DNA from: Microbacterium sp. STN6
GTDB lineage: Bacteria > Actinomycetota > Actinomycetes > Actinomycetales > Microbacteriaceae
Length of the DNA: 64,000 nucleotides
Assembly: GCF_026410545.1 (NCBI RefSeq)
Contig: NZ_JAPMIT010000002.1
Coordinates: 434,001-498,000, forward strand
Direction of reading: 5' to 3'
The first letter of the stretch is position 1. Each line of letters opens with the position of its first letter. Positions 25,163 through 47,507 of the stretch are shown piece by piece. The notes under the pieces were generated by a model. The model was not told the origin of the DNA. It did not search any database and was given only the letters and a program-made list of their open reading frames with translations. The translations under genes and the position numbers were made by a program.

Positions 25163-25879
25163 ATGTCAGAAGCACCGAAACGACGCAGGGTTCTCCTCAA
25201 GCTCTCCGGTGAGGCATTCGGTGCCGGCTCCCTGGGCGTCAATCCCGATGTCGTCAGCTCGCTCGCCCGTGAGATCGCCCAGGCGGCGACCGACGTGGAG
25301 ATCGCGATCGTCGTCGGAGGCGGCAACTTCTTCCGCGGAGCCGAGCTCAGCCAGCGTGGCATGGACCGAGGACGCGCCGACTACATGGGCATGCTCGGCA
25401 CCGTCATGAACGCGCTCGCTCTGCAGGATTTCCTCGAGCAAGCCGGTGCTGCGACGCGTGTGCAATCCGCTATCGCCATGACCCAGGTCGCCGAGCCTTA
25501 CATTCCCCGCCGAGCGGAACGGCACCTCGAGAAGGGCCGCGTCGTCATCTTCGGCGCCGGTGCAGGGCTGCCCTACTTCTCGACCGACACCGTCTCGGCC
25601 CAGCGGGCACTCGAGATCGGTGCCGACGTCGTACTTGTCGCCAAGAACGGAGTCGACGGCGTCTATTCGGCCGACCCGCGCACCGACCCGAAGGCCGTGC
25701 GCATCGATCGCATCACCTACCAGGAGGCGCTGCAGCGCGGGCTCAAGGTCGTGGACTCGACCGCGTTCAGTCTCTGCATGGATAACGGTATGCCGATGCA
25801 GGTCTTCGGCATGCAGCCGGCAGGTAACGTGACAGACGCCCTGCTGGGCCGCGAGATCGGCACGCTGGTCTCCAACTAG
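25163..25879 (+). CDS. pyrH: UMP kinase
   Basis: 238 residues, normal size; hexameric bacterial UMP kinase of the amino-acid-kinase fold, making UDP from UMP and ATP. Motifs are [38 protein letters not shown] and [21 protein letters not shown]. Gene order pyrH-frr-cdsA is conserved. It has its own promoter after the tsf terminator. Confidence 0.97.
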
Positions 25880-27563: not shown

Positions 27564-28115
27564 ATGGGTGACGTGAGCACGTTTCCAATCGCACGCAGGC
27601 CCCGGCGAGGGTACGACATCGACGACGTCGAGGCGTTCCTCGCGCGGGCCAGGAGCGCGTACGACGGCGAGTCGGGCGGCAGCCTGAGCGCCGAGGAGAT
27701 CAGACACACGGCGTTCACGCTTCGCCGGCGCGGCTACGTCACGTCCGCCGTCGACGCGGCGCTCGAACGGCTTGAGGATGTCTTCGCCGCCCGGGAACGG
27801 GAAGAGGCGGTGCGTGAGCTCGGTCGCGATGGCTGGCTCGAGCAAGCCCGTACGACGTCAACCGAGATCGTGGCCCGCCTCGAGAGGCCGGAGCACGCGC
27901 GGTTCGGCCGTGTCAGCATCCTGAGCCATGGTTACAGCGTGGGGGAGGTCGACGCCTTCTGTGACCGGCTGCTCGACTATTTCCGCCAGGGCACCACGTT
28001 GACGACGACGGATGTGCGAACGGTTGTCTTCACGCCGAAGCGGGGCGGCTATCGCGAATGGCAGGTCGACGCAGTGCTCGACTCTGTGACCGATGTCATG
28101 CTGGCCGTTCGCTGA
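27564..28115 (+). CDS. Protein with two DivIVA-like motifs
   Basis: 183 residues, soluble. Two copies of a DivIVA-type motif pair occur. The first has GYDIDDVEAFL and, about 25 residues later, RHTAFTLRRRGYVTSAVDAAL. The second has GYSVGEVDAFC and VRTVVFTPKRGGYREWQVDAVL. DivIVA proteins bind curved polar membranes in actinobacteria, but this one lacks the long coiled coil. It starts 4 bases after cdsA, so it is co-translated with lipid synthesis. Function unknown; a polar adaptor is a guess. Confidence 0.8.
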   Translation: MGDVSTFPIARRPRRGYDIDDVEAFLARARSAYDGESGGSLSAEEIRHTAFTLRRRGYVTSAVDAALERLEDVFAAREREEAVRELGRDGWLEQARTTSTEIVARLERPEHARFGRVSILSHGYSVGEVDAFCDRLLDYFRQGTTLTTTDVRTVVFTPKRGGYREWQVDAVLDSVTDVMLAVR

Positions 28116-31781: not shown

Positions 31782-31820
31782 GAATTGCAGAAACGATGCA
31801 CTGCATCGTTTCTACAATTC
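31782..31820. terminator. Near-perfect 39-base palindrome between convergent genes
   Basis: Two 19-base arms (GAATTGCAGAAACGATGCA and its complement, 18 of 19 paired) flank one central base. The right arm contains the stop codon and last Leu codon of the PerM-like gene on the minus strand. It lies just after the hydrolase gene and could terminate both transcripts. No U-tract. Confidence 0.65.
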
Positions 31821-32876
31821 GTTCTGGTGGGGGATCACGACCTGCTTGATGATGAGCAGCACGGCAGCGGCGACGGGAATCGCGATGAGTGCGCCGAGGA
31901 TGCCGAGCAGAGAGCCGCCCGCGAGGGCGGCGATCACGACGAGAGAGCCCGGGACCTGAACGGCGCGGTTCATGATGTTCGGGCTCAGGATGTACGCCTC
32001 CACCTGCATGTAGATCACGTAATAGATGGCCGCCGCGATGGCGGTCGTCAGCGTGTTCTCGTGCAGGCCGGGGAACGGGATGAGACACGTGAGAACGATG
32101 ATGACTGAGCCGGTCAGCGTACCGACGAGCGGCAGCAGCGAGAACAGGAACGCGATGAAGGCGAGCACGGCCGTGAACGGGGCGTGGATGATCGACAGGA
32201 AGATGAAGCTCAGGACGCCGTTGCAGAGGGCGAGCGCGAACTGGCCCATCACGTAGCGACCGACGGACTTGGAGATCTGCTCGGCGAGATCGGCGAACCG
32301 CGCGCGCTTGGTGGCGGGCACCAGCTGGTAGAGGCCGCGCTTGATCGAGGGAAGCGACGCCGTGAAGTAGATGGTCAGAATGCCGATGATGATCGCCCCG
32401 AACACCCCGCTGATCACCGCGAAGCCGACCGCGAGCACGCCGTTGGCGAGGCCTGTGATCTTCGATGGGTCCGTGACGAACGCCGTGACGCTGTCGATGA
32501 ACGACGAGACGTTGGCCGAGCCGAACTGGTTGTTGAGCGCGCCGATCCAGTCCTGCTTCTGAATGGTGTTGACGATGCCGGGGATCTGCCGCACGAGCTC
32601 GGAGACCTGGGAGGTGATGATCGGCACGATCGCGAAGACGATGCCGACGACGGCCCCGATCACAACGACGAGCACCGTGACGATGGCTGCCCAGCGCGGA
32701 AAGCGGAGCTTTTCGAGCAGTGTCACGGCCGGGTCGAGCCCGAGGGAGAGGAACAGCGCCGCACCGATGTACGTGATGATCGTCGAGAGGCTGACGATCG
32801 ACGCCAGAATGAGGATGCCGAGCCCGACGCCCAGGGTGCCGACCAGACCGAGCCGGAACGCATTCTGGATCTTCAT
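31812..32876 (-). CDS. AI-2E/PerM family membrane transporter
   Basis: 354 residues with about eight hydrophobic segments, a polar coiled region (ITSQVSELVRQIPGIVNTI) after the third, and the family C-terminus with FLFSLLPLVGTLTGSVI and LSPNIMNRAVQVPGSLVVIAALAGGSLLGILGA. Members include the putative autoinducer-2 exporter TqsA and several Na+/H+ antiporters, so the substrate is open. The gene starts 24 bases after the hendecad-repeat protein gene and is its operon partner. Its last codons lie in a palindrome. Confidence 0.9.
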   Translation of the reverse strand: MKIQNAFRLGLVGTLGVGLGILILASIVSLSTIITYIGAALFLSLGLDPAVTLLEKLRFPRWAAIVTVLVVVIGAVVGIVFAIVPIITSQVSELVRQIPGIVNTIQKQDWIGALNNQFGSANVSSFIDSVTAFVTDPSKITGLANGVLAVGFAVISGVFGAIIIGILTIYFTASLPSIKRGLYQLVPATKRARFADLAEQISKSVGRYVMGQFALALCNGVLSFIFLSIIHAPFTAVLAFIAFLFSLLPLVGTLTGSVIIVLTCLIPFPGLHENTLTTAIAAAIYYVIYMQVEAYILSPNIMNRAVQVPGSLVVIAALAGGSLLGILGALIAIPVAAAVLLIIKQVVIPHQNEL

Positions 32877-32900: not shown

Positions 32901-34580
32901 CTATTCCGGCTCTGCTGTCACCTTCTCGGCCTGCGTGAGCACGCCGCGCAGGTTCTCGAAGTACCCGGCGACGGCGTCTCGCTCGATCCTAATCTGGGCG
33001 AGGCGATCCTCGGCGTCCGCCACGAGCTCGCGTGTGCGTTCCTCGGCCTGCTCGATCAGTTCGGCCGCACGGTCCTCCGCCTCATGCACGATGCGCGTGG
33101 CCTCGTCTTCGGCCGCCTTGCGGGCCGTAAGTACCTCGGCACGAGACGCCTCCCGCAGCGAGTTCGCCTCTTCTCGGGCCGCCGTGGCCTGACTCTGCGC
33201 CTGCGAGAGCTGCTCGCCGGCCTCGTCGAGGTACTTCTGCATCTGCGCGACGGCCTCCTGATGCTTGGCCAGGTGCTCCTTCTCGGCTTCGTCGCGCCGC
33301 GCCTTCAGCTCGATGTCCAGATCGATGCGTGCCTGTTCGGCATCGCGCTGCTGCTTGTCGACCTCATCGAGCACCGTCGTGCGCCGCGTGGCGAGTTCCT
33401 CGTCGAGCGCGTGGCGCGCTTCGGCGCTCGAGCGCTCGAACTCGGTTCGTTCCGTATCGATCTCTGAGGCGAGCGCGGCGCGCGCCTCGTTCATCTCTGC
33501 CGCGAGGTCGGCCCTGGCCTTGGCGGCCTCGGCCGCGAGGTCCGCGCGGGTCTGCTCGGTCTCGGCCGTCAGCGCGGCGGTGCTCTGCTCGCGCTCCGTG
33601 GCCAGCGCGGCCCGCGCCTGTTCCGTCTCGCTCGAGACGGCGGCTCGCGCCTGCTCCGTCTCGCTCACGAGATCGGCCCGGGCCTGTGCGATCTCGCTCG
33701 CGAGATCGGCCCGGGTCTTCGCCGCTTCCTTCTCGAGGTCGACACGTGTCTGCTCCGCGTTCTTCTCCGTGTCCAGACGCGTCTGCTCCACCCACGCAGC
33801 CAGGTCGTTTCGTGCCTTCTCCTGCTCGGTTTCGAGCTGGATGCGCGACTGCTCCGACTCGTGAGTCCATTGCGAGCGGGCCTCGGCGAGTTCGCGCTCG
33901 ACGCCGGCACGCACCTGTTCCGTCTCGCGGCCGAGGTTCTCTGCCTCCTGGCGGGCGGCGGCGGCTTCGCGGGAGGCGACGACGGTCATCTCCGCCGCCT
34001 CGCGCTCGGCCTCGGCGCGCAGCGCCGCCGCCTCTCGCTTGCTCGTCGCCCGCAGCTCCGCGGACTCGGTGGCGACGGCGCCGCGAATCGAGGCGGCCTC
34101 GCGGACCGCATCCTGAATCAGCGCCTCCTTCTCGGCACGCGCTGCCTGAAGCAGTTCATTCGCCTCGATGCGCGCATCCTCGACCGTGGTCTCCGCGCGC
34201 GCGTTCGCGTCGGCCATGACCCGCCTGGCCTGGGCGAGCGCCGTCTCGCGGATCTTATCGACCTCGGCGCCCACCTGGCTGCGCAGCTTCTCGGCGTCGA
34301 TGTCGGCCTTCGCGATGAGACGCGTTGACTGCTCCTCGGCCACGCGAAGCGTGTTCTCGAGCTTGGTGCCAAGCCCCGAGAATGTGGGGCTGCCCACCTC
34401 TTCGATCTCGGCGTTGAGCTCGTCGATGCGCGCGCCGAGCCGCTTGATCTCCTTCGCTGATTCGGCGTTCTGGGTGTTCGAGGCGATCAGCTCACGGCGC
34501 AGATCCTGCACGGCACGGTCGACCTCGTCTTTGTCGTACCCCCGGAAGACCTGGGTGAATTCTGCGTCGTCGGTAGCCAC
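32901..34580 (-). CDS. DivIVA-like coiled-coil protein built of 11-residue repeats (FilP/Scy-like)
   Basis: 559 residues. A short DivIVA-type N-terminus (FTQVFRGYDKDEVDRAVQDL) leads into an almost uninterrupted helix rich in Ala, Glu, Arg and Gln. From about residue 223 to 409 it reads as 17 consecutive 11-residue units with consensus (A/T)RxxLxxExEQ, for example ARADLVSETEQ and ARAALATEREQ; weaker 11-mers continue on both sides. Hendecads form straight or right-handed coiled coils, as in intermediate-filament-like FilP and Scy of Streptomyces. GTG 34580 has GGAGAG upstream. The role is probably cytoskeletal and polar (inference). Confidence 0.85.
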   Translation of the reverse strand: MATDDAEFTQVFRGYDKDEVDRAVQDLRRELIASNTQNAESAKEIKRLGARIDELNAEIEEVGSPTFSGLGTKLENTLRVAEEQSTRLIAKADIDAEKLRSQVGAEVDKIRETALAQARRVMADANARAETTVEDARIEANELLQAARAEKEALIQDAVREAASIRGAVATESAELRATSKREAAALRAEAEREAAEMTVVASREAAAARQEAENLGRETEQVRAGVERELAEARSQWTHESEQSRIQLETEQEKARNDLAAWVEQTRLDTEKNAEQTRVDLEKEAAKTRADLASEIAQARADLVSETEQARAAVSSETEQARAALATEREQSTAALTAETEQTRADLAAEAAKARADLAAEMNEARAALASEIDTERTEFERSSAEARHALDEELATRRTTVLDEVDKQQRDAEQARIDLDIELKARRDEAEKEHLAKHQEAVAQMQKYLDEAGEQLSQAQSQATAAREEANSLREASRAEVLTARKAAEDEATRIVHEAEDRAAELIEQAEERTRELVADAEDRLAQIRIERDAVAGYFENLRGVLTQAEKVTAEPE

Positions 34581-37716: not shown

Positions 37717-38502
37717 GTGACGCGCATGCTGATCGTCGGAGGCACGGGCAGGGTCGGCACGGCGGTCGCAGCGCAGGCGGTCGAGCGCGGTCACGAGGTG
37801 GTTGCCCTCAGCAGGCACGCGCCGGCCGAGGGTTCTGCCATCCCCGGCGTGCGCTACGTGCAACTCGATCTGCTCACCGCCGTCGACTTCGATGAGGCCA
37901 TGGAGGGCGTCGACGTTCTCGTCGACACGACGGACGGCGTCAGCCGCGCATCCGGTCGCGTCTTCACACAGGGCTCGGCCAACCTGCTGCACGCGGCCGC
38001 GCGCTGGGGCATCGCCCGTGCCGTGCTTCTCTCCATCGTGAACGTCGACCGTTGCAACCTGCGCTACTACCGCACGAAGACCGCTCAGGAGAGCGCCTAC
38101 CGCGAGTCGGTGCTCGAGACGCGCATCGTGCGCGCGACGCAGTTCCATGACCTGGTGACCGGCGTGTTCCGCACCGGCGCGAAGGGGGGCATCGTGCCCG
38201 CGTTCGGCGGCGTGCGGCTGCAGCCGATCGCCATCGACGACGTCGCGAGCATTCTCGTCGACACGGCCGAGGGAGCGGGCAGAGCCGAGACAACGTTCAC
38301 CGTCGGCGGCCCCGAGGTGCTGTCGTTCCGCGAGATGGCCGCGCAGTGGAAGGCGGCGACGGGCTCGCGCGGCCTTGTGCTGCGCCTGCGCATGCCGGGC
38401 GCGATCGGCGCGTTCTGGCGTTCGGGCGGCGCGCTCATCCCCGAGCACGCCGTCGGCCTCATCACCTATCGGCAGTGGCTTCAGGCGCGCGAACGAGCCT
38501 GA
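37717..38502 (+). CDS. NAD(P)-binding atypical short-chain dehydrogenase (NmrA-like)
   Basis: 261 residues. The Rossmann motif is LIVGGTGRVGTAV, followed by VQLDLLTAVDFDEAMEGVDVLVDTT and SIVNVDRCNLRYYRTKTAQE, where YRTK replaces the YxxxK dyad of classical members. Such proteins act as NADPH sensors or oxidoreductases. The GTG start has AGGGAGG upstream. It converges on glgB with one base between the stops. No pathway link is visible. Confidence 0.85.
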   Translation: MTRMLIVGGTGRVGTAVAAQAVERGHEVVALSRHAPAEGSAIPGVRYVQLDLLTAVDFDEAMEGVDVLVDTTDGVSRASGRVFTQGSANLLHAAARWGIARAVLLSIVNVDRCNLRYYRTKTAQESAYRESVLETRIVRATQFHDLVTGVFRTGAKGGIVPAFGGVRLQPIAIDDVASILVDTAEGAGRAETTFTVGGPEVLSFREMAAQWKAATGSRGLVLRLRMPGAIGAFWRSGGALIPEHAVGLITYRQWLQARERA

Positions 38503-38503
38503 C

Positions 38504-40726
38504 CTATCGCGGGTTCGCCGGCGTCAGCCAGAGAGCCCCGAGCGGCGGCAGCGTCAGCAGAGCGGATGCCGGCCTGCCCGCCCATGGCTCGTCGGTCGCC
38601 GTGACGCTCCCCATGTTGCCCACGCCGGAGCCGCCGAAGGCGGCGGCATCCGTGTTCAGCAGCTCGGTCCACTCGCCGGCCTGGGTAAGCCCGACCCGGT
38701 AGCCCTCGTGCGGAACTCCCGCGAAGTTCACGACGACGACGAGAGGAGTGCCGTCGTCACCGCGGCGCAGGAACGAGACGACGTTGCCTCGGGCGTCGCC
38801 GCCGTCGATCCACTCGAAGCCGGCCGCTTCGTTGTCGAGCTGCCAGAGCGCCGGGGTGGCCCGGTAGAGACGATTGAGCTCGGTGACGAGTTCGAAGAGG
38901 CCGCGGTGGATGGGCTGCTCGAGGATCCACCAGTCGAGCCCGCGTTCCTCGCTCCACTCGCTCGGCTGGCCGAACTCCTGCCCCATGAACAGCAGCTGCT
39001 TGCCCGGGTGCGACCACATGAATGCGAGGTAGGCGCGGATGTTCGCGATCTTCTGCCAGTGGTCGCCCGGCATCTTGCCGAGCAGAGAGCCCTTGCCATG
39101 CACGACCTCGTCGTGGCTGATAGGCAGCATGAAATTCTCGCTGAACGCATACGCGAACGAGAATGTGATCTCGTTGTGGTGGTACGAGCGGTACATCGGG
39201 TCCTCGTGCATGTACTGAAGCGAGTCGTGCATCCACCCCATGTTCCACTTCAGGCCGAAGCCGAGGCCGCCGCTCGAGGTGGGTGCCGTGACGCCCGGCC
39301 AGCTCGTGGACTCCTCGGCGATCATCACGGTGCCCGGGTTGCGCTTATATGCCGTCGCGGTCACCTCCTTGAGCAGCTCGATCGCCTCGAGATTCTCGCG
39401 GCCGCCGCGGATGTTCGGCTCCCACTCGCCCTCGGCCCTCGAGTAGTCGAGGTAGAGCATCGATGCCACGGCGTCGACCCGCAGGCCGTCCACATGGAAC
39501 TCCTCGAGCCAGTACAGTGCGTTGGCGACGAGGAAGTTGCGCACCTGGCGCTGGCCGAAGTCGAAGACGTATGTGCCCCAATCCTGGTGCTCACCGCGCC
39601 TCGGGTCCGGATGCTCGTAGACCGCCTCGCCGTCGAAGCGGGCCAGCGCCCAGTCGTCCTTGGGGAAGTGACCGGGGACCCAGTCCATGATCACGCCGAT
39701 TCCCGCCTGGTGAAGTCGATCGACCAGGTAGCGCAGGTCGTCGGGGTGACCGAAGCGGCTGGTCGGCGCGTAGTAGCCGGTGACCTGATAGCCCCACGAT
39801 CCGCCGAACGGGTGCTCGGCCAGCGGCAGGAATTCCACGTGCGTATAGCCGAGTGCGCCCACGTAGTCGACGATCGCATCCGCTGCCTCGCGGTAGCCCA
39901 GGCCGGGCCGCCAGCTGCCCAGGTGCAACTCGTACACGCTCATGGGGCCGCGGTGCGGGTCGCTCGCGGCGCGCTCGGCCAGCCACGCGGCATCCTGCCA
40001 CTCGTAATCACTTGTGCCGATAACGGATGCGGTGGCCGGCGGCACTTCGGTGTAGCGCGCGAGGGGGTCGGCCTTGCGCACCCAGCGCCCGTCGCGGGTG
40101 AGCAGCTCGAACTTGTACGCCCCCGAGGTCACGCCGGGCACGAAGAGTTCCCAGACGCCGCTGCCGCCCATGGAGCGCATGGCGTGGCGCGCGCCGTCCC
40201 AGTCGTTCAGGTCGCCGATGACGCGCACGGCGCGTGCGTGCGGCGCCCAGACCGAGAATGCTGTGCCCTCGGCTGTCGCCTCGACGCCACGCTGCTCGAC
40301 GACGTGCGCGCCGAGGACGCGCCAGAGCTGTTCGTGACGGCCCTCGCCGATGAGGTGCAGGTCGAGCTCGCCGAGCGTCGGCGGATACCGGTATGGGTCG
40401 TCGGCAACCCACTCCGTGCCGGCCTCGTAGCGAGCCTCGAGCACGTAGTCCTGGGGGCCGAGAACGCTGACGCCCTGCCATATGCCGTAAGCGACATGTG
40501 CCAGTTCGATATGGGCGCCCGTTGCCAGAACGGCTCGCACCGCGAGCGCGAGAGGGCGCAGCGCACGGATGACCATGACGCGATCCTCGACGCCGTCGGC
40601 CGCCACCGGGTGCTGCCCGAGCACCGAGTGCGGGTCGTGGTAGGTGCCGGCAGAGACCGCCCGCAGCACGTCATCGGTCACGGGAGCGGCAGCGATGGCC
40701 GCGTCTCCCTCGGGAATCCCGCTCAT
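38504..40726 (-). CDS. glgB: 1,4-alpha-glucan branching enzyme
   Basis: 740 residues. An N-terminal CBM48 tandem (including [23 protein letters not shown]) precedes the GH13 barrel: [29 protein letters not shown] with the nucleophile Asp, [12 protein letters not shown] with the acid Glu, and [17 protein letters not shown]-terminal beta domain ends the enzyme. It introduces alpha-1,6 branches. ATG 40726 overlaps the glgE stop (ATGA) and has an ideal AAGGAGGAG site inside the glgE end. GlgE and GlgB together make branched glucan from maltose-1-phosphate. Confidence 0.97.
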
Positions 40727-42741
40727 CGTGGCTCCTCCTTCACGTGCAGAATGTGCACGGGTTCGCCGAACGCGTCCAGGCGCACATAGTTGTCGGCGCC
40801 CCACTCCCAGACGGCGCCGGTGACCAGTTCCTCGACCGTGAATCGACTCTCGGGCGCCAGCCCGAGCGCCTCGAGGTCGAGGTGCACGATCGTCTCGCGC
40901 ACCGAATGCGGGTCGACGTTGGCGACAACGATGATGGTATCGGCGGCTCCCGTCTCGCTGACCTCGGCATCGAGATGCTTCGAGTACACGAGAACCGCGT
41001 CGTCGTCGCTGGAATGCAGCACGAGGTTACGCAGTTGGCAGAGCGCCGGGTGCCGGCGACGGATGTGGTTGAGCAGGCCGAGGCCCTGCGCGAGCGAGCG
41101 CCCTTCGCGCTCGGCGGCCGCCCAGTCGCGCGGGCGGTACTCGAACTTCTCGTTGTCGATGTACTCCTCCGCGCCGTCGCGCGCGACCGACTCGAACAGT
41201 TCGAAGCCCGAGTACACGCCCCAGGTCGGCGCGGCGGTGGCGGCGATCGCCGCACGGATCCAGAACGCCGGCGGCCCACCGAACTGCAGGTACTCGGTGA
41301 GGATGTCCGGCGTGTTCACGAACAGGTTGGGCCGCAGGAAGTCTGCGGTCTCGTTCGCCAGCGAGTCGAGGAACTCTTCGAGCTCCTCCTTCGTGTTGCG
41401 CCAGGTGAAGTAGGTGTACGACTGCTGGAACCCGACCTTGGCGAGCGTGTGCAGAATGGCGGGCCGGGTGAACGCCTCGGCCAGGAACACCACGTCGGGG
41501 TGATCCCGGCCCACCGTGTGGATCAGCCACTCCCAGAAGTCGAGCGGCTTGGTGTGCGGGTTGTCGACGCGGAAGATGCGGATGCCGGCGTCGATCCAGT
41601 GCCGCACGATGCGCAGCACCTCGGCGCGGATTCCGGCGGGGTCGTTGTCGAAGTTGACGGGGTAGATGTCCTGGTACTTCTTGGGCGGGTTCTCGGCGTA
41701 GGCGATCGTGCCGTCGGGCAGGGTGGTGAACCACTCGGGATGCTCGGTGACCCAGGGATGGTCGGGGGAGGCCTGCAGGGCGAGATCCAGGGCGACCTCG
41801 AGACCGGCCTGCTTCGCCCGGCCGAGGAAGAGGCGGAAATCCTTCGTGTCGCCGAGGTCAGGGTGGATCGCGTCGTGCCCGCCCTCGGCCGCGCCGATCG
41901 CCCACGGCGAGCCGGGGTCGAGCGGGCCGGCATTCAGCGTGTTGTTGGGGCCCTTGCGGCCGGTGCGCCCGATGGGATGGATGGGCGGCAGGTACACCAC
42001 GTCGAAGCCCATCGCGGCGATCGCGGGCAGGCGCTTCGCCGCGGTGCGGAAGGTGCCGGACGTCCACGAGCCGTCGGCCGAGCGCACCGCACCCTCGGAG
42101 CGCGGGAAGAACTCGTACCAGCTGCCCACTCCGGCTAGCTGGCGTTCCACCCGGATCTCCAGCGGCTTCGAGAGCGAGTCGGGGCCGGCGAGGGGGCGCA
42201 CGCGCGCGATCTGCCCGAGGCGCGGATCGTCGATGAGGGCCAGGCGGGCGGCGGCGTCGCCACCGGCATCCGCCAGCGCAGCCCCGATCTCCGCGAGGGT
42301 GCGGCGTTCGGCGGCCGGGCGCGATCGCTCGCGTGACGCCTTCGCCAGCAGGTCCGAGCCGATCCGGTACATGAGCTCGACGTCGACGCCGGCCGCGACC
42401 TTGATCGCCGCATCGTGCTGCCACGTCGTGAGCAGGTCTGCGTAGGCCCGGATGCGGTACCGCCAGGTGCCGGGCGCGTCGAGGCGCACCGTCGTGCGCC
42501 AGCGGTCGTCCCCGGGCTGCGTGAGGGTGAGCGGATGCCGCGTGACCGCTCCCGTCGGATCGGTGAGCAGAAGCATCACGCCGATGAGGTCGTGCCCCTC
42601 GCGGAAGGCCGTGGCCTCGAACGGGACGACCTCGCCGGCGAACGCCTTCGCGGGCCAGCGGCCGCCGTCGACTGCGGGCGACGGGGCGAGCACGGGGATG
42701 CGCCCGATGCGTGGTTTCCAGTCGTCGTCGTTGCTGCTCAC
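40723..42741 (-). CDS. glgE: Alpha-1,4-glucan:maltose-1-phosphate maltosyltransferase
   Basis: 672 residues, GH13_3. N-terminal domain N carries [19 protein letters not shown]-type sequence. The barrel has [25 protein letters not shown], nucleophile Asp in [16 protein letters not shown], general acid Glu in [10 protein letters not shown] and the GlgE signature [13 protein letters not shown]. It extends glucans with maltose from maltose-1-phosphate. GTG 42741 is supported by a -10 box 7 bases upstream. No TreS-Pep2 or GlgM gene is in the window, so the source of maltose-1-phosphate is not visible here. Confidence 0.97.
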
Positions 42742-42748
42742 ACCCTTG

Positions 42749-42828
42749 ACCGTAATGCCCCGGCGCGCGCTTGGCATCCCGCAGCGGGGCATCCGCGTCG
42801 TGAAGAGCGCCGGGCTTCCGCATAGGCT
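42749..42828. promoter_or_regulatory. Divergent leaderless promoters of glgE and glgP
   Basis: On the minus strand TACGGT (42749-42754) lies 7 bases before the glgE GTG. On the plus strand TAGGCT (42823-42828) lies 6 bases before the glgP GTG, with a weak -35 (GTGAAG) 17 bases upstream. The 93-base region could place synthesis and breakdown of glucan under shared control. No clear operator is seen. Confidence 0.5.
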
Positions 42829-42834
42829 GAGTGT

Positions 42835-45396
42835 GTGAAAGCGATCCGCACATTCACCGTCCGCGCCCCGATGCCCGAGCGCCTCGCCGGCCTCGCCAAG
42901 CTGGCGGGCAACCTGCGCTGGTCCTGGCACGAGCCGACCGCGCGGATCTTCGCGCAGATCTCACCGGAGGTCTGGGAGGGCAGCAGGCAGGACCCTGCAG
43001 CCGTTCTCGCCTCGGCCGACCCGAGCAGGCTCGCCGAGCTGGCCGCAGACGACGACTTCGTCGAGAGGGTCGACGCGCAGGCCGCCGACCTCGACGACTA
43101 CCTGACGAAGCCGCGCTGGTACCAGACGCTCGACACCGAGAGCACGCCGACCTCTATCGCGTACTTCTCGCCGGAGTTCGGCATCGCATCGGCGCTGCCG
43201 CAGTACTCGGGCGGCCTCGGCATCCTCGCCGGCGACCACCTGAAGAGCGCCTCCGATCTGGGGGTGCCGCTCGTGGGCATCGGCCTGTTCTACCGCGCGG
43301 GCTACTTTCGCCAGACCATCTCTGCCGCCGGGTGGCAGGAGGAGAGCTACCCGGCCCTCGATGCCGCCGGGCTCCCGCTCGCGGAGGTTCGCGAGACGGA
43401 CGGCTCGCGACTGCGCGTGGCGCTCGCCCTGCCTGACGGCCGCACGCTGAACGCCCGTATTCTCGAGGCCGCCGTCGGTCGAGTGCCTCTGCTGCTGCTC
43501 GACACCGACATCGAAGACAACGACGCCGACCTGCGCGACGTGACCGACCGGCTGTACGGCGGCCAGGGCGAGCACCGGCTGCGGCAGGAGCTGCTGCTCG
43601 GCGTGGGCGGCGTGCGGGCCCTGGCGGCGTGGTGCCGCATCAGGGGCGCCGAGTGGCCGGAGGTGTTCCACACGAACGAGGGCCACGCCGGGTTCCAGGG
43701 GCTCGAGCGCATCGCCCGGCTCATCGGCGACGGCCACGCGTTCGACGAGGCGCTGCAGCTCGTGCGCGCCAGCACCGTCTTCACGACGCACACGCCGGTG
43801 CCGGCCGGCATCGACCGCTTCGAGCGCTCGCTCGTCGAGACCTACGTCTCCGGCGACATGCTGCCCGGCGTCGGCGCGGCCCAGGTGTTGCCGCTCGGCA
43901 CCGAGGACTACGAGGGCGGCTCGCCCGACGTGTTCAACATGGCGGTCATGGGCCTGAGGCTCGCGCAGCACGCCAACGGCGTCTCCCGGCTGCACGGCGA
44001 GGTCTCGCGCCGCATGTTCGGCGGACTCTGGCCCGGCTTCGACGAGAACGAGGTGCCGATCGACTCGGTCACCAACGGCGTGCATCCGCCCACCTGGACC
44101 GACCCGATGCTGCGCGCGCTCGCCTCAGAGCGCCTCGGCACCAGCGACACGAGCAGCGCGCCGTGGGGCTCCGGCGAGGTCACCGACGCCGAGCTCTGGG
44201 AGGTTCGCGGGCGGATGCGCCGCCAGCTGGTCGGCGACGCCCGCAGGCGCGTTGCGGCCGCGTCGCTCGAGCGCAGCGGCATCGTCCCCGCGTGGGTCGA
44301 CGAACTGCTCGACGAGCGCACGCTCACGATCGGCTTCGCCCGCCGCGTGCCCACCTACAAGCGCCTGACGCTCATGCTGCACGATGAGGAGCGGCTGCGC
44401 GCCATCCTCACCGACCCCGAGCGCCCCGTACAGCTCGTCATCGCAGGCAAGGCCCACCCCGAGGACGAGGAGGGCAAGCGCCTCATCCAGCAGGTCGTGC
44501 GCTTCGCCGCCGACCCTGTGCTGCGCACGCGCATCGTGTTCCTGCCCGACTACGACATCGGCATGGCCAAGAAGCTCTACCCTGGCTGCGACGTGTGGCT
44601 GAACAACCCACTTCGGCCGCTTGAGGCCTGCGGCACCTCTGGCATGAAGGCGGCGCTCAACGGTGTGCTCAACCTCTCGGTGCTCGACGGCTGGTGGAAC
44701 GAGTTCTACGACGGCGAGAACGGCTGGGCGATCCCGTCGGCGGTCGCCGCAGACGCCGAGGAGCGCGACGCGCTCGAGGCAGGCGCCTTGTACGACCTCA
44801 TCGAGCAGCACATCGTGCCCCGGTTCTATCACCGTGACGCCGAATCGGTGCCGGTGCGCTGGGTGCAGGCCATCCGGCACACGCTGGCGACGCTGTCGCC
44901 GGTGCTGAGCGCCGACCGCATGGTGCGTGAGTACCTTGAGCGTCTGTACCGGCCGGCGGCCGTGCTGTCGCGCCGGCTGCGCGAGGACGACGCTCAGCCG
45001 GCCGTCGCTCTGGCGGCCTGGAAGCAGCGGGTGAGCGCGGCATGGCCCGGCGTCGAGGTGCTCGACGTCGAGTCGAGCGGGGCGGATGACGGCAGACTCG
45101 GCGACAAGATCCGTGTGCGGGCCCGGGTGCGTCTCGGCGACCTCGCCGCCGACGACGTGGTGGTGCAGGCGGTGTACGGGATCACGGGTGCCGACGGCCT
45201 TCTGCACGACGCCCACGTGCGCCGGCTTCAGGTCGTGCCGGACAGCGAGTTCCCCCCGGGATCCGGCGAGTTCGCGTTCGAGGGCAGACTGCGGCTGCGT
45301 CATCCCGGAACGTTCGGTTACACCGTGCGCGTGCTGCCGGCAAACGAGCTGCTCGTGAGCCCGGCCGAGATGGGGCTCGTCACGCTTGCGCAGTGA
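42835..45396 (+). CDS. glgP: Alpha-glucan phosphorylase (GlgP, DUF3417-containing type)
   Basis: 853 residues. The N-terminal DUF3417-like region (LAKLAGNLRWSWHEPTARIF) is followed by the GT35 body: YFSPEFGIASALPQYSGGLGILAGDHLKSASD split here into parts, VFHTNEGHAGFQGLER, TTHTPVPAGIDRF and TIGFARRVPTYKRLTL. The PLP-binding block is EACGTSGMKAALNGVLNLSVLDGWW, quoted in pieces, with Lys in GMKA. It releases glucose-1-phosphate from glucan. Its end overlaps the convergent glgX end by 17 bases. Confidence 0.96.
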   Translation: MKAIRTFTVRAPMPERLAGLAKLAGNLRWSWHEPTARIFAQISPEVWEGSRQDPAAVLASADPSRLAELAADDDFVERVDAQAADLDDYLTKPRWYQTLDTESTPTSIAYFSPEFGIASALPQYSGGLGILAGDHLKSASDLGVPLVGIGLFYRAGYFRQTISAAGWQEESYPALDAAGLPLAEVRETDGSRLRVALALPDGRTLNARILEAAVGRVPLLLLDTDIEDNDADLRDVTDRLYGGQGEHRLRQELLLGVGGVRALAAWCRIRGAEWPEVFHTNEGHAGFQGLERIARLIGDGHAFDEALQLVRASTVFTTHTPVPAGIDRFERSLVETYVSGDMLPGVGAAQVLPLGTEDYEGGSPDVFNMAVMGLRLAQHANGVSRLHGEVSRRMFGGLWPGFDENEVPIDSVTNGVHPPTWTDPMLRALASERLGTSDTSSAPWGSGEVTDAELWEVRGRMRRQLVGDARRRVAAASLERSGIVPAWVDELLDERTLTIGFARRVPTYKRLTLMLHDEERLRAILTDPERPVQLVIAGKAHPEDEEGKRLIQQVVRFAADPVLRTRIVFLPDYDIGMAKKLYPGCDVWLNNPLRPLEACGTSGMKAALNGVLNLSVLDGWWNEFYDGENGWAIPSAVAADAEERDALEAGALYDLIEQHIVPRFYHRDAESVPVRWVQAIRHTLATLSPVLSADRMVREYLERLYRPAAVLSRRLREDDAQPAVALAAWKQRVSAAWPGVEVLDVESSGADDGRLGDKIRVRARVRLGDLAADDVVVQAVYGITGADGLLHDAHVRRLQVVPDSEFPPGSGEFAFEGRLRLRHPGTFGYTVRVLPANELLVSPAEMGLVTLAQ

Positions 45397-47440
45397 CGGT
45401 GCGGTAGAGCTGCATCGACGCACCGGCCACCTCGACCGTGGTGCCGGGCGCCAGCTGCGCCCCCTCCTCGAGGTTCGGCTCGTCGTCGGCGCTGTCCCAC
45501 ACGAGCGAGTACGACGCAACGCCCGGCGCCGCCGGCAGCGTCACCGTCACGTCATCCTCGATGCCGTGCACGATGAGCAGCACGCGGTTGAACTCCTCGT
45601 CCTCCGGAGTGCTCGCCACGAGGTACTGCAGCGTGCGGTTCTCGGGCGAATCCCAGTCGGCGGGGTCCATGGTGCCGCCGCCCTGGTCGTACCACGTCAT
45701 CTCGCTCGCGCTCGGAACGCTCTGCCCGGCAACCGCGTACCGCTTCGGTCGCAGCGCCGGGTTCGCCTGACGCAACGCGATGAGGCGCTTCGCGTGCCGC
45801 TGCAGCTGCTGCTGCTCGCGGCTGAGCAGCCAGTTGATCCACGTCAGCTCGCTGTCCTGGCAGTAGGCGTTGTTGTTGCCGCGCTGGGTGCGCCCGAACT
45901 CGTCGCCGGCCGTGATCATGGGCACGCCCGCCGAGAACAGCAGGGTGCCCATCAGGTTGCGCATCGACCGGCGGCGCGCCTCATTCACGACCTCGTCTGA
46001 GGTTCCGCCCTCGACCCCGTGATTGAACGAGCGGTTGTTGTCTGTGCCGTCGCGGTTGCCCTCGCCGTTGCCCAGGTTGTGCTTGTGGTCGAACGCGGTG
46101 AGGTCGGCGAGGGTGAACCCGTCGTGCGCCGTGACGAAGTTGACGGAGGCGAGCGGCCCGCGCTCCGCGGCGAAGGTGCCGGCCGAGCCAGCCAGGCGCG
46201 TCGCGAAGCCGCCGATTCCCGTCGGAGCGTCGCCCGTGTGCCTGGCCTGCGCAATGTCGGTGAGCCAGAAAGCGCGCACCCGGTCGCGGTAGCCGTCGTT
46301 CCATTCCGAGAAGCCCGCGGGGAAGTGCCCAGTCTGCCACCCGCCCAGCCCCACATCCCATGGCTCGGCAATCATCTTGAGGCCCGAGAGCGCCGGGTCG
46401 TGCAGAATGCCCTCAAGCAGCGGATGCTCTGGCGTGAACTCGGCGTTCGCCCCGCGCCCGAGCGTGGTCGCCAGGTCGAAGCGGAACCCGTCCACGTGCA
46501 TCTCGGTGGCCCAGTAGCGCAGTGAGTCGAGCACGAGCCTGACGGGGGCGGGATTCGCGAAGTCGACGGAGTTGCCGCATCCGGTCACATCGATGTATGC
46601 GCCGTCGTCCTGCTGACGGTAGTACGTGGAGTTGTCGATGCCGCGGTAGTTGTACAGCGGGCCGCCTGGACCTTCCTCGGCGGTGTGGTTGTACACCACG
46701 TCGAGAATGACCTCGATGCCCGCCTCATGCAGCAGGCGAACCATGCCCTTGAACTCGCGCAGCACCGCCTCCGGTCCCTCGGCGCGGGCCGCTCGCGATG
46801 CGTACGCGCCGTGCGGGGCGAAGAACGCCAGCGTGTTGTAGCCCCAGTAGTTGGTGAGGCCCTGCTGGGTCAGCCGCTGCTCGGAGACGAACGCCTGAAC
46901 GGGCAGAAGCTCGAGCGCGGTGACGCCGAGTTCGGTGAGGTGAGCGATGGTGGCTTCATGCGCGATCCCGGCATAGCTGCCGCGCAGATGCTCGGGCACA
47001 TCCGGGTTCAGCATGGTCATGCCCTTGACGTGCGCCTCGTAGATCACCGTTCGGTCGAGCGGGGTCGAGGGCCTGCGTGAGTCGCCCCAGTCGAAGCCGT
47101 CCTCCATGACCACCGAGAGCAGGTCGGAGCCGTGACCCGGCACGAGGCCCTTGGTGTACGGGTCGATGAGGAGCGCCTCGGGGCTAAAGGCGTTTCTGGC
47201 GCCCTTCGGACCCGAGGCGCGGATCGCGTAGCGGCGGCCGGGAGTGAGCGAGCGCGAGCGCCCCACCCACACGTCGCCGCCGTCGCGGTGCATCGGCACG
47301 GTCTTCACGAGCCAGTTGGGGTCGGCATCGTCGTAGAGGCAGAGTTCCATCGCGTCGGCGCTCGCCGAATAGACCCGCAGCTCGCCGCCGTTCTGCGTCA
47401 GATGCACGCCGAGGTTACGCAGAGGATCGGCGGCGGGCAT
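45380..47440 (-). CDS. glgX: Glycogen debranching enzyme GlgX
   Basis: 686 residues. The N-terminal CBM48-like domain (LGVHLTQNGGELRVYSASADAMELCLYD in part) precedes the GH13_11 barrel: EAHVKGMTMLNPDVPEHLRG, EVILDVVYNHTAEEG, FRFDLATTLGR with nucleophile Asp, and KMIAEPWDVGLGGWQTG with acid Glu. It removes alpha-1,6 branches left by GlgP. ATG 47440 is chosen over GTG 47464 because TACTCT lies exactly 7 bases before it. Confidence 0.96.
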   Translation of the reverse strand: MPAADPLRNLGVHLTQNGGELRVYSASADAMELCLYDDADPNWLVKTVPMHRDGGDVWVGRSRSLTPGRRYAIRASGPKGARNAFSPEALLIDPYTKGLVPGHGSDLLSVVMEDGFDWGDSRRPSTPLDRTVIYEAHVKGMTMLNPDVPEHLRGSYAGIAHEATIAHLTELGVTALELLPVQAFVSEQRLTQQGLTNYWGYNTLAFFAPHGAYASRAARAEGPEAVLREFKGMVRLLHEAGIEVILDVVYNHTAEEGPGGPLYNYRGIDNSTYYRQQDDGAYIDVTGCGNSVDFANPAPVRLVLDSLRYWATEMHVDGFRFDLATTLGRGANAEFTPEHPLLEGILHDPALSGLKMIAEPWDVGLGGWQTGHFPAGFSEWNDGYRDRVRAFWLTDIAQARHTGDAPTGIGGFATRLAGSAGTFAAERGPLASVNFVTAHDGFTLADLTAFDHKHNLGNGEGNRDGTDNNRSFNHGVEGGTSDEVVNEARRRSMRNLMGTLLFSAGVPMITAGDEFGRTQRGNNNAYCQDSELTWINWLLSREQQQLQRHAKRLIALRQANPALRPKRYAVAGQSVPSASEMTWYDQGGGTMDPADWDSPENRTLQYLVASTPEDEEFNRVLLIVHGIEDDVTVTLPAAPGVASYSLVWDSADDEPNLEEGAQLAPGTTVEVAGASMQLYRTVTAQA

Positions 47441-47447
47441 GCGATCT

Positions 47448-47453
47448 AGAGTA
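47448..47453 (-). promoter_or_regulatory. -10 box TACTCT (leaderless) for glgX
   Basis: On the minus strand TACTCT is followed by 7 bases and ATG 47440. The box lies between glgX and the divergent cysteine desulfurase gene. Confidence 0.55.
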
Positions 47454-47507
47454 ATTGAGTGCACGGGCGGCGCATGACCGCATCGTGTGCCCAGTCAGGG
47501 AGGCATC

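Follow-up and report, generated by a model that had tools for sequence, protein, structure and literature searches.

In the related bacteria examined, the lengths of these coiled-coil rods mostly vary in whole steps of 11 residues, as though a lineage-specific number of identical units had been fitted between one type of head and one type of C-terminal cap. The rod at the centre of this analysis is encoded within a stretch of 64,000 nucleotides from Microbacterium sp. STN6, here called the window. Its gene (32901..34580) is located on the reverse strand, starts with GTG at position 34580 and specifies a protein of 559 amino acids. On the basis of its head, rod type and architecture, the protein is filed in the FilP family. 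It adds a new member to a family already published, for which hendecads and a wide variation in length are known from the available part of PMC9858780. An exact quantisation by 11 residues, near-constant ends and a single variable array were not found stated in the accessible portions of the literature, which included Results text of PMC9858780; the study of Walshaw et al. (2010) on Scy may bear on this point.

All parts of the protein are encoded on the reverse strand. The head (residues 1-68; 34377..34580) contains the motif FRGYDKDEVD followed by a heptad coil, and 56 residues separate its RGY from a GLG element. Model TIGR03544 matched the head with 24.7 bits, above the cut-off of 22, so that its earlier characterisation as DivIVA-like was corroborated. 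The Pfam DivIVA model gave 24.9 bits with the whole rod protein, below its 28-bit cut-off, and 28 in a six-frame search. The head is followed by a near-constant proximal hendecad coil (residues 69-222; 33915..34376; GLGTKLENTLRVAEEQ ... IRGAVATESAELRATSKREAAALRAEAEREAAEM), a variable array of 17 hendecad units (residues 223-409; 33354..33914), a constant distal coil (residues 410-533; 32982..33353; EQARIDLDIELKARRDEAEKEHLAKHQEAVAQMQKYLDEA ...) and a C-terminal cap (residues 525-552; 32925..33008; RLAQIRIERDAVAGYFENLRGVLTQAE). A motif similar to that of the cap is present at the C-terminus of FilP; the cap as a feature of the FilP family is a proposal of this analysis and was not taken from the literature. 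Homology to apolipoproteins, to which Pfam (32.8 bits, cut-off 90) and PDB matches (apolipoprotein A-IV) pointed, was rejected and the similarity read as common 11-residue amphipathic repeats. An AlphaFold monomer model (pTM 0.23) contained a break at residues 312-325. Since this break adjoins residues devoid of alignment cover (305-315), the monomer model decides nothing about the array.

The preliminary description had reported 17 uninterrupted hendecads at residues 223-409 with the consensus (A/T)RxxLxxExEQ, and this array was recovered exactly at 33354-33914, with all units in one frame. Position 2 is occupied by R in 16 of the 17 units, position 8 by E in 14 and position 5 by L in 11. The identity of the array at lag 11 amounts to 0.43, compared to a maximum of 0.21 among 20,000 permutations, and the array is far beyond chance. 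Weaker units continue on both sides, as had been claimed (lag-11 z of about 6 in residues 60-222 and of 5 in residues 410-545), and lags 11, 22, 33, 55 and 66 are the top five for the window rod as a whole. A 51-residue repeat, which Walshaw reportedly assigned to the FilP/Scy class in 2010, did not extend over the whole rod; lag 51 emerged only in residues 410-545 (z 3.5).

Formal analysis of hydrophobic periodicity also sustained the earlier view that the rod is made of hendecads rather than heptads. The array has a period of 3.67 (11/3), and the hendecad power exceeded the heptad power in all 43 measurable arrays, that of the window included, so that a heptad periodicity did not prevail in any of them. 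In the window array alone the power was 9.2 at 11/3 versus 4.1 at 7/2, i.e., the heptad term is non-negligible, and some stretches of 55 residues (e.g., 279-333) are weak or mixed in periodicity. Moreover, the window protein shows two shifts of its hydrophobic phase by approximately half a residue, one close to residue 200 and the other after about residue 433. Among 45 family proteins, the head coil was better described by heptads in every case (period 3.50), the proximal coil (3.66) and the 45 residues leading up to the cap (3.68) in every case by hendecads. The distal coil is weaker in this respect (3.63; hendecad better in 38 of 45). The core positions of the array are 9 (V/L/I/T), 1 (A/T) and 5 (L), corresponding to the hendecad positions a, d and h, of which d carries a small residue. 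R2 and L5 served to fix the register, which leaves only positions 1 and 9 as independent observations; A or T fills position 1 in 52% of 1046 units. This core agrees with the hendecad packing rule given in the accessible text of PMC9858780.

The length of the rods was expressed as head-to-cap distance, i.e., the distance from the GLG of the head, anchored by a profile, to the conserved R of the cap, located by its motif. The sample from the bacterial family comprised 60 loci of 52 genera, selected from 124 matching genomes (where 53 or 61 proteins are given, that of the window is among them). Outside the family, 40 loci were picked to spread over families, namely 37 order matches and three from Scy-bearing genomes. 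A further 80 named loci, which belong to Microbacteriaceae, are the best 80 of 188 and hence close relatives; on their account the family sampled here is taken to be Microbacteriaceae. The distance was left unmeasured in one of 61 family, six of 40 outside and three of 80 named loci. It ranged from 198 to 1048 residues overall and from 252 to 1048 within the family. Of 60 measurable family proteins, 54 fell into two classes, 22 being 3 mod 11 and 32 being 7 mod 11, while six belonged to other classes. The named close relatives (best 80 of 188) were all 3 mod 11 (77/77 measurable) and showed ten distinct lengths between 355 and 938. Outside the family, 34 proteins could be measured, and in 31 of them, originating from 13 families, the distance came to exactly 18, 23, 26, 27, 29, 30, 31, 34, 39, 44 or 47 units of 11 residues, with FilP corresponding to 18 x 11; the other three proteins break the rule. 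For 53 family proteins the preference modulo 11 yielded p=1.6e-37, and p=4e-29 for their 43 distinct lengths, values that ignore relatedness. Thirty-nine of these 43 lengths fall in the two main classes, and none of the other moduli from 5 to 19 was significant for the 53 proteins. Relatedness is taken into account on a tree of the PerM-like protein encoded next to the rod gene, on which 45 tips of known length required at least 38 changes of length but only six changes of the mod-11 class. The classes 0, 7 and 3 can be read as successive steps of +7 (or -4), equivalent to one heptad or one stutter; as 7 and 11 have no common factor and every class is reachable, this reading is suggestive only. 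In a number of loci (L083, L085, L086, L088, L090, L091 and L092) RGY and GLG of the head are 63 residues apart (nine heptads) and not 56 (eight). Changes by an entire repeat thus seem to occur in the head as well; FilP, having a spacing of 55 as opposed to 56 in the window protein, does not fit this pattern.

The variation in length sits in the middle hendecad array, the very array noticed in the preliminary description. Within the 53 family proteins, the proximal block was found in 46, and in 45 of these its offset from GLG is 80, the exception (L084) being 22 residues shorter; the distal block was found in 48 and invariably lies 135 residues before the cap. Both offsets hold in 77 of 77 named loci (best 80 of 188). 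The head, the first 150 residues of the rod and the last 135 are near-constant in length within the family, and the middle array ranges from 51 to 793 residues. At the DNA level, a 33-bp tandem period was seen in parts of the window gene, and the array of Leifsonia shinshuensis (L210) contains tandem repeats of 66 and 99 bp that are up to 91% identical. Given tandem repeats of this type, in-register recombination is a sufficient cause of the quantisation; selection for coil register is compatible with the data beside recombination. It is conceivable that the quantisation is purely mutational and arises when similar 33-bp repeats recombine unequally or slip, with no selection on length or coil phase. 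The DNA repeats speak for such a process, and wherever the end blocks could be located the variation is confined to the repetitive middle. On the other hand, multiples of 11 recur in the outside proteins across 13 families and down to FilP, and a single length, 443, is shared by 56 of the 77 measurable named loci (mainly Cryobacterium and Agromyces; best 80 of 188), whereas Leifsonia rods reach up to 938. The uniformity at 443 residues next to the long Leifsonia rods suggests constraint in some lineages. We give the purely mutational account a substantial chance, albeit somewhat below even.

Two further alternatives concern the identity of the protein and its putative partner. The protein could be a second DivIVA, i.e., a polarity determinant rather than a rod resembling intermediate filaments. 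Its head is indeed DivIVA-like, and all 61 family proteins have F, M, L or V directly in front of RGY, while FilP has R. However, the Wag31 model NF050102 scored only 28.2 bits with the rod protein (cut-off 260), compared to 115.7 bits with the other DivIVA protein of the genome, which is itself below the cut-off. In addition, a profile built from 38 heads (A1) gave best-domain scores of 64-65 bits with three FilP proteins versus 19 with that other DivIVA protein, the head thus being far closer to FilP. On these profile scores an identity as second DivIVA was rejected, and we hold it to be highly improbable. The other alternative is that a PerM-like (AI-2E) protein acts as a dedicated membrane partner anchoring the rod. 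Directly downstream of the rod gene, on the same strand and separated by 24 nt, lies a gene for such a membrane protein of 354 amino acids (31812..32876; PF01594, 166 bits). The pairing noted in the preliminary description is real in the sense of adjacency and is conserved in 52 of 60 family loci. PerM also lies downstream in 79 of 80 named loci (best 80 of 188), the remaining one, L275, being ended by a contig end; it follows the broken rod frames of L224 and L253, lies next to an additional rod gene copy in L084 and also accompanies the rod gene in two other families (L173, L188, L203). Yet unrelated flanking genes are kept as well, a SCO2278-like gene in 60, a thioredoxin gene in 58 and a hydrolase gene in 52 of the 60 family loci. 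PerM is missing from eight of these 60 stretches, three of which (L056, L061, L078) have both flanks intact, and in 22 genomes it is kept in the syntenic block with the rod gene undetected beside it. Outside the family, it is absent from 34 of 37 fetched stretches, some of which were ended by contig ends, and from all three stretches of Scy-bearing genomes. As each gene is lost without the other and the flanks are kept as well, we do not take the pairing to indicate a complex. With synteny extending over the entire block, the pairing was rejected as proof of function; the case for a functional pair is weak, and a dedicated PerM partner appears unlikely.

The assignment to the FilP family also bears on the relatives named earlier. 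FilP and Scy had been put forward as nearest analogues; FilP stands, and by its head is even to be regarded as a homologue, but Scy could not be retained as an equal relative. Scy as nearest relative was rejected since its model NF041483 found no match in the window genome at E<=0.001. The FilP sequences used here stem from three Scy-bearing genomes, whose affiliation with Streptomyces (group f37) is deduced from above-cut-off Scy matches. With FilP as phmmer query, the rod protein was matched at 6.9e-6, and the other DivIVA protein of the genome gave no match at E<=10. An 80-residue C-terminal profile found its best FilP match (34 bits) at the FilP C-terminus and scored 11.5 bits (E 0.065) with the DivIVA protein. 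A 28-residue profile of the cap core missed FilP even without filtering and with E<=10 allowed; among the 40 outside loci it reached at most 12.7 bits. As the core profile misses FilP, a homology of the cap would rest on the longer, coil-rich profile and the motif.

Besides the rod gene, the window contains on the forward strand a gene (27564-28115) for a DivIVA domain repeat protein of 183 amino acids (TIGR03543, 193.6 bits, cut-off 154.2), in which four GY motifs were recognised by eye. It lies near an amino-acid-kinase-family gene (25163-25879) and 4.8 kb from the FilP-like gene. According to the available part of PMC9858780, the PolyDIV group lies near UMP kinase, and the 27564-28115 protein fits this group as far as it is described there. 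On the other side of the rod locus, glgB (38504-40804, reverse strand), of which an antisense frame at 38375-40789 had served as locus marker, is clustered with genes for GlgE, alpha-glucan phosphorylase and a CBM48/alpha-amylase protein (38504-47464).

The head sequence was matched in 124 of 150 family genomes (E<=0.001); at the order level the head was detected in 158 of 198 genomes by a looser profile, so that paralogues may be included. The other 26 family genomes gave no head-sequence match at E<=0.001. In four of them the head profile produced weak matches (21-26 bits, DivIVA itself scoring 19 bits) away from the locus, and the PerM-like protein was matched in all 26, in G103 weakly (6.8e-8); the 22 genomes with PerM in the syntenic block but an undetected rod gene are among these 26. 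Mapped on a quick tree with 75 PerM rows, the pattern of rod presence needs three changes, at least one of which is forced. In the rod-less blocks L135 and L141, the head profile matches another frame beyond the hydrolase gene, which is probably the PolyDIV gene. In L125, where the rod gene was undetected, about 2.1 kb separate PerM from the SCO2278-like gene; the two are adjacent in L124 of the same genus. Small genomes of 1.3-2.2 Mb (e.g., G046, G059, G083, G127 and G130) revealed three head-domain matches in frames of approximately 350-430 residues, some of them about 1.1 kb apart in a tandem-like arrangement. The rod frame stops early in Cryobacterium breve ERMR7:08 (L253) and in L224, after 187 and 244 residues counted from where the match begins, respectively, and is intact in another C. 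breve (L282). These stops may reflect sequencing error or decay.

We consider it likely, if far from certain, that the protein is a FilP-family coiled-coil rod which assembles near the growing pole, has its length set by the number of hendecad units and supports polar wall growth. This reading draws on the observed architecture, the homology of the head to FilP, the hendecad periodicity, the quantised lengths and the near-constant ends. The coiled-coil rise is 0.1485 nm per residue, and the protein would form a parallel dimeric rod of about 80 nm, as estimated from residue count. Its plan would comprise a heptad DivIVA-like head, a near-constant proximal coil, a near-straight hendecad array whose unit number sets how long the rod is, a distal coil of constant length and a conserved cap. 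By homology to FilP, the rod ends may be the assembly points from which filaments or a meshwork arise near the growing pole. There, the rod may work in contact with the DivIVA protein of the genome and contribute mechanically to polar wall growth. Its length would evolve mainly by whole units of 33 bp or 11 residues in the middle array, keeping head and cap in coil register. In B. subtilis DivIVA, the position before RGY is in touch with the membrane; as a hydrophobic residue occupies this position in the family proteins, a membrane-touching head is possible. The most likely role is that of a FilP-like filament or scaffold for polar wall growth. Three FilP-family proteins, one of them from Janibacter, form filaments in vitro (PMC2680258, available part). 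For Streptomyces FilP, the accessible text of PMC6599971 gives a rod calculated at about 40 nm and measured at 37 nm, and a subapical position to which the protein is recruited by DivIVA. An experiment on a FilP-family member from Microbacteriaceae was not found in the literature.

FilP serves as a model of bacterial cytoskeletons that resemble intermediate filaments. Extending the present reading to the family at large is tentative: FilP-family proteins might be length-tuned spacers that hold head and cap at a lineage-specific distance by whole hendecads, with a head possibly touching the membrane, the coil phase kept across actinobacterial families and the unit number determining how widely the striations or meshes of the polar cytoskeleton are spaced. 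From residue count, such spacers would measure approximately 29 to 156 nm. The same rod occurring in about forty lengths (43 distinct lengths in 53 proteins) amounts to a ready-made natural series for comparing lengths. Should the filament repeat or the mechanics of the cell scale with the number of units, the length of the rod could be tested directly as a design variable. The FilP-family rods are also an unusually clean case of repeat expansion obeying a coil-register rule.

FilP orthologues are widespread in actinobacteria, simple ones included, as stated in the available part of PMC4255298. Martinez-Goikoetxea and Lupas (2023; PMC9858780, in the sections accessible) place micrococcales FilP sequences in a FilP/Scy group with hendecad expansion and lengths from <200 to >1000. 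What the window protein has in common with FilP of Streptomyces is the DivIVA-like head, the junction GLG..(L/V)E..LR.AEE, a hendecad-rich rod and a similar C-terminal motif. What separates them is the head-to-cap distance (198 residues in FilP versus 465 here, with a long hendecad array), the length class (0 mod 11 versus 3 mod 11), the residue before RGY, which is R in the former and hydrophobic in the latter, and the neighbour genes in the stretches fetched. In addition, the autocorrelation of FilP contains lags of 18, 51 and 73, and FilP is thus no pure hendecad rod. Scy of Streptomyces shares the long hendecad rod and the autocorrelation at lags 11 and 22, but lags 18, 29 and 40 are prominent in this protein, and the available text of PMC9858780 describes it as N-terminally truncated. 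DivIVA/Wag31 and GpsB have the head motif and the fold family in common with the rod protein, and the head profile A1 matches crystal structures of GpsB (8.8e-5) and DivIVA (2.5e-4). By contrast, the head profile scores DivIVA far lower than FilP, and the C-terminal profile gives DivIVA only 11.5 bits.
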